Below are positions 1-35,868 of a DNA stretch of 64,000 nt, piece after piece. A program made the translations under genes and the position numbers. Numbering within the stretch: position 1 is the stretch's first letter; every line of letters starts with the position of its first letter. The stretch spans positions 62,001 to 126,000 of the forward strand of contig NZ_MWQH01000002.1 of assembly GCF_002210295.1 (NCBI RefSeq). The letters are read 5' to 3'. Under the pieces are notes generated by a model, which was not told the DNA's origin, searched no databases, and saw only the letters and a list, made by a program, of their open reading frames with translations. This stretch comes from Fibrobacter sp. UWB5 (GTDB taxonomy: Bacteria; Fibrobacterota; Fibrobacteria; Fibrobacterales; Fibrobacteraceae).

Positions 1-1678
1 TGTCTGCGGCGGTCAGCGGCTCGGAACCTTCGGTGGTGCTTTCGGCAACCATGCTTTCCACGAGTTCTTTGAACTTGTCGAGTTCGCCAGAGGTAATAAC
101 GCTCTTGATTTTATCTTTGAAGGCAGCGACGCGCTTTGCGCTGATGATTTCGCCTGTCGGCAATTCCATCGTTTCAATCGGCTGGCGGGTCGCCTTTTCG
201 ATAATCTTGAGCATCTTCTTTTCACGCGGCGTGATAAAGAGAATGGCGTTACCGCTGCGGCCTGCACGACCCGTACGGCCAATGCGGTGCACGTAAGATT
301 CGGTGTCGTAAGGAATGTCGTAGTTCACCACGTGTGTAATGCGGTCCACGTCGATTCCGCGGGCAGCCACGTCGGTGGCGACAACGATATCGAGCTTGCC
401 CATCTTGAGGCGGTTGATGGTGCGTTCGCGCATGGACTGGGCGAGGTCCCCATTCAGCGGAGCTACATTGAAGCCGCGGCTTTCAAGCTTTTCGGCAACT
501 TCGGTCGTGTTCTGCTTGGTGCGTACGAAAATCAGTACGCCGTCAAAGTCTTCGCCTTCAAGAACGCGGGCGAGCGCTTCGATCTTGTGTTCGTTCTTTA
601 CGAGTAAATAACGCTGGCGGATGTTTTCGACGGTCGTCGTCTTGCCTTCGATGCAGGCTTCTTCGTATTCGCCCAGGTGCTGTTCAATAATCTTCTTGAC
701 TTCTTTAGGCATGGTGGCGCTAAAGAGGGCGCGCTGGGCGCTTGCAGGGATTTCCTTGAGAATGGTTTCCACATCTTCCATGAATCCCATGTCGAGCATT
801 TCGTCGGCTTCGTCGAGTACGATGGCCTTCACGCCCGAAAGAACGATAGAACCGCGCTTGATATGGTCAATCAGACGGCCCGGAGTGGCGACCACGATGT
901 TTGCCTGACGCTTGAGGGCGCGGAGCTGTACGGCGATGTCCTGACCGCCGTAAACCGGAACCACATGCACCTTGGGCATCTTGGCGGCGTACTGCTGGAT
1001 GGCTTCGGCCACCTGAATTGCGAGTTCACGGGTCGGCGTGAGCACGAGCATCGAGGTTTCGTGGCCGTTAAAGTCGAGCCTCGATAGGAGCGGAAGAGAG
1101 AATGCTGCTGTCTTGCCGGTACCGGTCTGTGCCGTACCGAGCAAATTTCCACCCTGCAAAAGGGCCGGAATAGCCTTTGCCTGAATGGGGGAGGGCGTCT
1201 CGTAGTTCAGAGCCTTGATGGCTTCAAGAACTTCGTCTGCAAGTCCGAGGTCTTCGAAAGTTACGAGGGCTTCGTCGCCCGGTTCCTCGTCAGAATCGTC
1301 ATCGGATTCTTCCGTCGGTTCTTCCTCTGCGGAGTCTTTTACAGCGGGTTGTTCGTCTTCGACCGGTTCGGCACAGCTCTTTTTAGATTCGGCGTAATCT
1401 TCGGCGCTTTCATCTTCTTCGGGCTGTTCGACTTCGCCTTCTTCGAATTCGACCTTCGTGCCGACTTCAATGGCGGACTTTCGACCCTTCTTGAGCACGT
1501 CGCCTTCTTCGTCGACGACCACGCCGTTCGGGTTCAGTTCCAGGAACGCGGCTTCATCGGCCTCGTCTTCGTCGGCACCGCCTGCAATAGCGTTCAAAAA
1601 CGCGTCTGCTTCGCGGGCAATCTTGGATTTGGGGTCAATAGCTTCTTCAGGAATACGTTCTTCAGTATTCTTCGTCAT
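1..1678 (-). CDS. DEAD-box ATP-dependent RNA helicase, 3' end outside window
   Basis: Translation of the minus strand from an ATG at 1678 stays open to the window edge (559 codons), so the C-terminus is missing. The first ~137 residues are a very acidic extension rich in Asp and Glu. A Q motif (TFEDLGL then ETPSPIQ), Walker A (AQTGTGKT), PTRELA, TPGRLIDH, DEAD box (LDEADEML), SAT (FSATMP) and the second RecA domain (VATDVAARGIDVDR, HRIGRTGRAG) follow in order. The family unwinds RNA in ribosome assembly, cold adaptation and RNA decay. AAGG lies 6 nt before the start codon and supports this start. The acidic extension is unusual for bacterial DeaD/CsdA/RhlE proteins. The subfamily cannot be fixed without the C-terminus. 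A second helicase of this family is at 20275-21672. Confidence 0.93.
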   Translation of the reverse strand, partial: MTKNTEERIPEEAIDPKSKIAREADAFLNAIAGGADEDEADEAAFLELNPNGVVVDEEGDVLKKGRKSAIEVGTKVEFEEGEVEQPEEDESAEDYAESKKSCAEPVEDEQPAVKDSAEEEPTEESDDDSDEEPGDEALVTFEDLGLADEVLEAIKALNYETPSPIQAKAIPALLQGGNLLGTAQTGTGKTAAFSLPLLSRLDFNGHETSMLVLTPTRELAIQVAEAIQQYAAKMPKVHVVPVYGGQDIAVQLRALKRQANIVVATPGRLIDHIKRGSIVLSGVKAIVLDEADEMLDMGFMEDVETILKEIPASAQRALFSATMPKEVKKIIEQHLGEYEEACIEGKTTTVENIRQRYLLVKNEHKIEALARVLEGEDFDGVLIFVRTKQNTTEVAEKLESRGFNVAPLNGDLAQSMRERTINRLKMGKLDIVVATDVAARGIDVDRITHVVNYDIPYDTESYVHRIGRTGRAGRSGNAILFITPREKKMLKIIEKATRQPIETMELPTGEIISAKRVAAFKDKIKSVITSGELDKFKELVESMVAESTTEGSEPLTAAD

Positions 1679-1830
1679 AATGCACCTTCAGGGACCCGTA
1701 AACTTCATCTGCGGCCCATGCCGCACTATCGAATGGTTCTGGCGCCGGTTGCCCGGCTGAACCTTGAAAAGCCCCGAAGCGCACTCGCGCTTATAAACCT
1801 GAAGTTTTTTGGATCCATTTTGTTGGATTT
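1679..1830 (-). promoter_or_regulatory. Structured 5' leader of the DEAD-box helicase, able to mask its ribosome-binding site
   Basis: On the minus strand the leader holds three perfect tetraloop hairpins. They are AAGCGC/GCGCTT (1792-1777), GCCGG/CCGGC with a GCAA loop (1757-1744) extended by GGTTC/GAACC (1763-1759 with 1739-1735), and TGCGGC/GCCGCA (1725-1710). All three are enclosed by a 7-bp helix, CTTCAGG (1804-1798) with CCTGAAG (1692-1686). The closing strand contains three bases of the AAGG ribosome-binding site (1688-1685). Formation of that helix should therefore reduce translation. I recognise no known riboswitch class. Folding was done by eye. Confidence 0.6.
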
Positions 1831-1835
1831 GCGGC

Positions 1836-1843
1836 CAAATGTA
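1836..1843 (-). promoter_or_regulatory. Probable promoter element (TACATTTG) of the DEAD-box helicase
   Basis: The octamer fits the TAnnTTTG pattern found upstream of many genes here. It would start the transcript near 1830, giving a ~150-nt leader. The position 17 bp upstream is only a weak -35 match (TTTAAA). Confidence 0.5.
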
Positions 1844-29716: not shown

Positions 29717-29724
29717 CAAATCTA
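29717..29724 (-). promoter_or_regulatory. Promoter element (TAGATTTG) of the LytR_C-rsfS-argS operon
   Basis: The octamer fits TAnnTTTG and lies immediately upstream of the first gene of the operon. Confidence 0.5.
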
Positions 29725-29759
29725 GAAAAATGTGAACTGCTGTCATAATGTTATTTGTC

Positions 29760-31590: not shown

Positions 31591-31612
31591 TCGGGGTTTG
31601 CTCAAATATAGA

Positions 31613-31620
31613 ACAATTTG
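31613..31620 (-). promoter_or_regulatory. Promoter element (TATATTTG) of tRNA-Leu
   Basis: The same octamer as at the tRNA-Glu genes lies 22 nt before the tRNA 5' end on the minus strand. A -35 match is weak. Confidence 0.55.
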
Positions 31621-33957: not shown

Positions 33958-33965
33958 CAAATATA
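33958..33965 (-). promoter_or_regulatory. Promoter element (TATATTTG) of miaB
   Basis: The octamer is identical to those of the tRNA-Glu and tRNA-Leu genes and begins 13 nt upstream of the ATG. Confidence 0.6.
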
Positions 33966-34231
33966 GAAATTTACTTGGAAATACTTAAATGCTGGTGCTT
34001 GGAAAAGTGTCTTTCTGAGCGAGAGGCGAAACCTTGAAGTCGAAGAATCTATTGATGTTGTGAGGGGGAGTAGTCCCCCTCGCTCTAGCCACAACTCAGC
34101 CTGCACCGCACGCGAACAAAAAATCCGCCTGCGGCTCCGACTGTTTGCTTTGCGGTCAGTCTATCGCCGTGTCTGCCGCTACCCCTACTGCGGGGACACC
34201 CCGCAACGCCCCGACCTTGCTAAAAATGAAT
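33966..34231. other. Non-coding GC-richer stretch with one strong hairpin
   Basis: No supported gene or RNA is seen here. The only clear structure is an 8-bp perfect stem GAGGGGGA (34062-34069) with TCCCCCTC (34074-34081) and a gtag loop. The stretch separates miaB from the AT-rich nuclease/toxin segment. Confidence 0.5.
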
Positions 34232-35855: not shown

Positions 35856-35860
35856 ATTTC

Positions 35861-35868
35861 TACATTTG
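35861..35868 (+). promoter_or_regulatory. Promoter element (TACATTTG) of gph
   Basis: The octamer fits TAnnTTTG and ends 9 nt before the gph ATG. Confidence 0.5.

Follow-up and report, generated by a model that had tools for sequence, protein, structure and literature searches.

The helicase gene deaD of Fibrobacter sp. UWB5 is preceded by a leader of about 150 nt that, judging from the way its sequence varies among relatives, is a structured cis-regulatory element whose pairing has been kept by evolution in the sense strand. On the same comparative grounds, it represents a family of conserved structured RNAs that is new to Rfam 15 and confined to a single Fibrobacter clade. We rate the chances as about even that two competing folds of this leader control either the translation or the lifetime of the deaD mRNA, with the DeaD protein itself as the likeliest regulator.

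The leader is located on the minus strand of the window (the entire DNA stretch of 64,000 nucleotides that we analyzed), directly upstream of the deaD start codon at position 1678. The window is Fibrobacter DNA, and the GTDB contigs matching it carry this name. The gene product is a DeaD/CsdA helicase: its DEAD, Helicase_C and DeaD_dimer domains match the corresponding Pfam models above their cut-offs, as does the DbpA-type RNA-binding domain present in the full protein, and the best NCBIfam model for the protein as truncated by the window, PRK11634, scores below its own cut-off. A first-pass annotation of this DNA had already noted a folded, possibly regulatory leader of a DEAD-box helicase gene. 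The conserved pairing found upstream of deaD agrees with this view and makes a regulatory role of the long, structured leader of this DeaD/CsdA-type helicase very probable. Most leader-bearing genomes encode a DeaD protein with a long acidic N-terminal extension that starts with a TEERIPEE-like motif. The extension is much shorter in the leaderless Fibrobacter clade (L095-L107, compared with 1-1678 of the window), and it is short as well in two genomes, G053 and G036, that nevertheless possess the leader. Further upstream on the minus strand reside two tandem tRNA-Glu(TTC) genes (2322-2394 and 2484-2556) with equal model scores and near-identical surroundings, and a tRNA-Ser(CGA) gene at 2157-2241 adjoins this pair. 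The intergenic segment 1880-2110, which separates tRNA-Ser from the deaD promoter, contains repeated and inverted motifs (ATCCCTCTCTCGTA...); its matches elsewhere in the genome, two in number, are confined to about 40 bases.

Table 1. Features of the deaD leader and its surroundings in window coordinates (SD, Shine-Dalgarno)
Feature	Position	Strand	Remarks
deaD/csdA, 5' part	1..1678	-	779 aa in full; gene runs past the window edge
Shine-Dalgarno AAGG	1685..1688	-	6 nt before ATG; AAGG in all aligned leaders
SD-side segment CCCTGAAG	1686..1693	-	YCCYGAAG across relatives; complement of B
P1 3' strand GGGTCC	1692..1697	-	shares 1693-1692 with the segment pairing with CUUCGGGG
P2 3' strand TGAAGTT	1701..1707	-	partner of 1806-1800
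P5 hairpin GCGGC-ATGG-GCCGC	1711..1724	-	loop not conserved
P4 variable hairpin GCCGG-GCAA-CCGGC (1757-1744) on GGTTC/GAACC (1763-1759/1739-1735)	1735..1763	-	
Candidate anti-SD segment (B) CTTCGGGG (= CUUCGGGG site)	1772..1779	-	CGGGG invariant in 49 leaders
P3a hairpin AAGCGC-GAGT-GCGCTT	1777..1792	-	loop near-invariant
P2 5' strand AACTTCA	1800..1806	-	pairs with 1707-1701; contains most of CTTCAGG (1804-1798)
P1 5' strand GGATCC	1811..1816	-	pairs with 1697-1692; predicted fold
Predicted promoter -7 box TACATTTG	1836..1843	-	fits TAnnTTTG; conserved among leaders

The predicted fold of 1679-1830 has a free energy of -52.5 kcal/mol, compared with -43.7 +/- 3.9 kcal/mol for dinucleotide shuffles, a gain in stability (z -2.24; 4 of 200 shuffles as good) that is modest taken alone. 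The three hairpins with 4-nt loops noticed in the first pass upstream of the ATG are confirmed by the letters of the minus strand, and in the predicted fold it is P1 that forms the closing helix, immediately ahead of the SD site (Table 1). The closing role had been ascribed before to a 7-nt complement, CTTCAGG (1804-1798) with CCTGAAG (1692-1686). This complement does exist and covers three of the four AAGG bases, but it does not close the element: the minimum free energy fold of 1679-1830, although more stable than shuffles, lacks the CTTCAGG/CCTGAAG helix, and the 5' strand of that helix pairs with TGAAGTT in P2. A GCAA hairpin on an extended lower stem (P4) is present in the window as had been described; across the relatives, however, the GCAA loop is not conserved and the hairpin varies in sequence and length. 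Inspection of the sequence after the hairpins revealed no U run resembling that of an intrinsic terminator, and control of translation or stability is therefore favored.

Our evolutionary analysis relied on 56 parsed leaders, 49 of which are distinct and were used for the helix counts. As a null model, the paired columns were simulated along the deaD tree at fitted rates and without pairing constraint in 1000 replicates. Taken together, 99.9% of the P2, P3a and P5 cells of the 49 leaders are paired, a level reached in none of the 1000 simulations, and the pairing observed over all 24 pairs was reached in four. All P2 pairs are formed in 48 of the 49 leaders (5/1000 simulations reach that), and every pair of P3a and of P5 is kept in all 49, with 7 and 11 of the 1000 simulations, respectively, being as good; in P3a, a C-G pair has been exchanged for U-A on both sides in 18 leaders. 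Covariation in relatives had been proposed as a check on the leader, and such compensatory changes are indeed present. The non-Watson-Crick cells of P2, P3a and P5 are sense-strand G-U, with no A-C at all and a single U-U mismatch, which points to the sense deaD mRNA as the selected form.

P1 is probably a real helix with moderate support. In its own columns, the paired fraction was reached by 258, the doubly changed pairs by 80 and both by 13 of the 1000 simulations, figures that are to be read with a 5' offset picked for best pairing, a choice favoring P1. Its variants among the 49 leaders comprise GGATCC/GGGTCC, GGATCC/GGATCC, GGGCC/GGCCC, GACCT/GGGTC, GACCT/AGGTC, AACCT/AGGTT and GGGCATCC/GGATTCCC. 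P4, with a mean z of -2.3 over 43 leaders and missing from the six others, has been rebuilt with unrelated sequences (GATTC/GAATC, GACGC/GCGTC, TGCTC/GAGCA, CGCT/AGCG). An additional helix in the RNAalifold prediction, P3b (GGUUU/GGGCU; alignment columns 26-30/52-56, window approximately 1799-1795/1774-1770), keeps its pairing in all 49 leaders, always with the same three U-G wobbles; since these pairs are fixed, the conservation of P3b is uninformative for or against this helix.

TAnnTTTG together with an upstream TTTG is the Bacteroidota-type promoter arrangement. TAnnTTTG is found upstream of 52 of the 56 leaders, and a TTTG box follows 18-19 nt further upstream in 44 of the 56; that of the window reads TTTA. 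From this putative promoter, we predict the deaD transcript to start at about 1832-1828 (near 1830), and P1 and P2 would therefore lie within the transcript. A start downstream of 1798, at which the helix proposed in the first pass could not form, is improbable given the conserved promoter-like TACATTTG (1843-1836) upstream of it. The window contains five copies of a related box, TTCTANATTTG, where 0.13 would be expected. Boxes of this kind are located at 31603-31613, 29717-29727, 33958-33968 and 35858-35868, one of them 12 nt before a tRNA gene; they provide a promoter consensus usable for the genus. An upstream open reading frame beginning with the ATG at 1818 was considered and dismissed, as close relatives have lost this start codon (L003, L006 and L008 read AAAACGGATCC).

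The leader region was detected by DNA search in most genomes of the genus. A covariance model built from 47 leaders has a single match in each of 56 out of the 80 genus genomes; where examined, the match is always positioned directly upstream of deaD. The model found no match in 88 other Fibrobacterota genomes, and no leader is present upstream of deaD in those related genera and leaderless genomes that were tested. Among the 24 genus genomes without the leader, 16 possess a leaderless deaD orthologue, so that this type of regulation appears to be dispensable outside the clade; the other eight, all incomplete assemblies, gave no orthologue match. All leader-bearing genomes fall into one clade of the deaD tree, which was calculated from the helicase core. 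The sister lineage of this clade (L092 and L093; genomes G026 and G028) carries just upstream of deaD a short hairpin leader, GGACAT-TGG-CTTCAGGATAGGTGCGAAG-CG-ATGTCCTGAGGTG, in whose predicted fold the SD site is masked via CUUCAGGA/UCCUGAGG. This leader has the appearance of a reduced or an ancestral version, with pairing of the type that the first-pass annotation had envisaged. Either the leader had a single origin in the clade, or it was reduced in the sister lineage and lost elsewhere. Searches of Rfam 15 with the window and divergent relatives yielded only tRNAs at the gathering score, in keeping with the earlier remark that the leader belongs to no described class, and only chance-level matches (best E 2.8 or worse) at E values up to 10. 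Apart from Fibrobacter(ales) sequences, a pattern scan of GTDB returned five actinobacterial contigs, which reach 17 bits at most with the model or remain unscored and were set aside as chance matches. Mimicry of 23S rRNA was likewise rejected, with a local alignment score of 28 against a shuffle mean of 27.1 and 89 of 200 shuffles as good, a comparison whose reach does not extend to short motifs.

Which part of the leader might hide the ribosome-binding site is a question for which the sequence offers two candidates. Over all offsets scanned, the best complement of the SD region (1693-1686) is CUUCGGGG (1779-1772), a nearly invariant segment formed by the 3' strand of P3a and the following invariant CGGGG. 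In 44 of the 49 leaders, the SD-side segment pairs with CUUCGGGG at 8 of 8 positions through G-C or G-U, and its main variants (TCCTGAAG, TCCCGAAG, CCCTGAAG and CCCCGAAG) all complement it; five leaders break the pairing. An equally good anti-SD segment occurs in 0.2-5% of shuffled leaders, and since the 5' strand of this pairing shows scarcely any variation, there is no two-sided covariation in it. We regard the evidence for CUUCGGGG as the exact SD-masking partner as suggestive. An extension of the CUUCGGGG pairing into the spacer between SD and start codon was discarded; strong as it is in the subclade of the window, it does not outperform random spacers when all variants are considered. 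The other candidate is the CTTCAGG/CCTGAAG helix, which in the first-pass annotation masks the SD site until the helicase melts it and thereby activates its own translation. For this reading speak the perfect 7-bp complement in the window and the masked SD site of the reduced leader in the sister lineage. However, this helix is intact in 27 of the 49 leaders and broken in 22, namely in the CCCGAAGG and GAAAGG clades, while P2 is broken in one. Folds forced into it are on average about 7 kcal/mol worse than P2, and its mean ensemble probability lies between about 0 and 3% in all conditions tried. Furthermore, a helicase melting its own block would produce positive feedback. Consequently, we consider this version of events very improbable.

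The CUUCGGGG:SD pairing shares 1693-1692 with P1 in the window and also competes with the base of P3a. The overlap between this pairing and P1, each of which is moderately supported, exists in the window and in the majority of clades, L028-type leaders being an exception. The two folds differ in mean energy by 1.5 kcal/mol, with each being better in part of the leaders; unconstrained folding accordingly yields CUUCGGGG:SD in some leaders and P1-P2 in others, and the predicted balance is sensitive to the amount of coding sequence folded. We consider a two-state leader likely.

Comparison of the sequences thus shows a junction of P2, P3a, P5 and the optional P4, with near-invariant joining segments; the probable helix P1 comes after it, and the SD site is immediately adjacent to P1. 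These features lend themselves to a regulatory model with two states. In the one state, P1, P2 and P3a would be formed and the SD site would be single-stranded beside P1; in the other, CUUCGGGG of the P3a/J3 region would capture the SD site and the bases preceding it. When free DeaD is plentiful, it would bind or remodel its own leader and thereby lower DeaD synthesis, so that the DeaD level would track the load of structured RNA in the cell. This negative feedback could be exerted either by DeaD binding to the junction or by DeaD speeding the refolding into the SD-masking form, and the leader would probably allow the cell to sense the existing amount of DeaD. We view DeaD as the best candidate for the regulator because of the exclusive association of the leader with deaD, the RNA-binding domain of the product and the known autoregulation of related helicases. 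On the basis of gene association and precedent, autoregulation by DeaD is hence the most plausible option. A more specific and distinctly unlikely variant of DeaD autoregulation would turn the leader into a gauge of helicase activity, in which a translatable P1-P2-P3a fold formed co-transcriptionally would be refolded with the aid of DeaD into the form with the CUUCGGGG-masked SD site.

The deaD leader of E. coli is much longer than its Fibrobacter counterpart. Both belong to the same gene family, and helicase autoregulation has been reported for E. coli deaD/csdA, there via mRNA stability and Rho-dependent termination according to Ojha and Jain (2020; doi 10.1261/rna.074112.119). In comparison, the leader of Fibrobacter, with its length of about 150 nt, is short and compact, and it is specific to one clade; this distinction is drawn from descriptions of the two leaders. 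The DEAD-box helicase CrhR of Synechocystis is described as depending for its expression on itself and on temperature, with control of transcript and protein half-life; the abstract of that report names no such conserved leader fold (PMC3485376).

A different role for the leader, which we judge unlikely, would be the control of deaD mRNA stability, with the structure serving as a platform for RNase binding or cleavage, and DeaD or the degradosome feeding back on decay. DeaD-type helicases act in RNA decay, and the P1-P2 fold is predicted to leave the SD site free. Moreover, there are precedents in the feedback on E. coli rne, reported to act through a 5'-UTR stem-loop, probably in E. coli deaD as well, and in the negative feedback via the 5' UTR reported for rnj of H. 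pylori (PMC5874925). By description, the sensor stem-loop of rne resembles the Fibrobacter leader in being a conserved leader structure that controls the RNA-processing enzyme encoded downstream, here RNase E; it works by cleavage and mRNA decay in E. coli, and the gene is unrelated. Against a role in decay, the Fibrobacter structure directly abuts the SD site and the anti-SD complement is conserved. An improbable alternative is a ligand-responsive riboswitch, in which a modeled pocket between P2, P3a and P5, lined by near-invariant joining segments, would bind a ligand that favors P1/P2 over SD masking. The unpaired junction bases are near-invariant, and the variable P5 loop and the optional P4 arm lie outside, as would be expected of an aptamer, with competing folds near the SD site. 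Translational riboswitches with SD/anti-SD switching resemble the leader in having invariant bases that join the helices of a junction core, arms that are optional, and competing pairings around the SD site. Metabolite riboswitches usually govern metabolic or transport genes and are spread more widely; in contrast, the Fibrobacter leader is limited to a single gene, one copy per genome and one clade, and it matches no Rfam family.

The weakest of the ligand, temperature and RNase-feedback alternatives is a response to temperature, since the predicted trend differs among clades and many of the source genomes stem from guts; we hold it to be quite improbable. Under such a scheme, cold would favor the P1-P2 fold with its free SD site, and warmth would favor SD masking. 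In the window leader, the predicted accessibility of the SD site is 0.61 at 10 °C and indeed decreases to 0.27 at 39-42 °C, P2 drops from 0.88 to 0.02 over the same warming, and deaD homologues are reported to be cold-induced in other organisms (PMC9800685). But other clades (L028, L031 and L041) show no such trend or the opposite one, the outcome depends in addition on the length of coding sequence folded, and many source genomes derive from the guts of warm-blooded hosts, in which the temperature is therefore nearly constant. The thermosensor option raised in the first pass thus finds no consistent support across clades.

DEAD-box helicases are general RNA remodellers and, to our knowledge, studies beyond E. 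coli and cyanobacteria have revealed little about how bacteria adjust helicase levels to demand. Should the gauge variant be true, the helicase would read its own RNA-remodelling capacity off its own mRNA, and not by simple binding. The compact leader with its optional arm, dozens of variants, a reduced form in the sister lineage and a leaderless lineage offers a well-controlled natural series for the study of helicase autoregulation, and it adds an uncatalogued structured RNA family to those of the Fibrobacterota.
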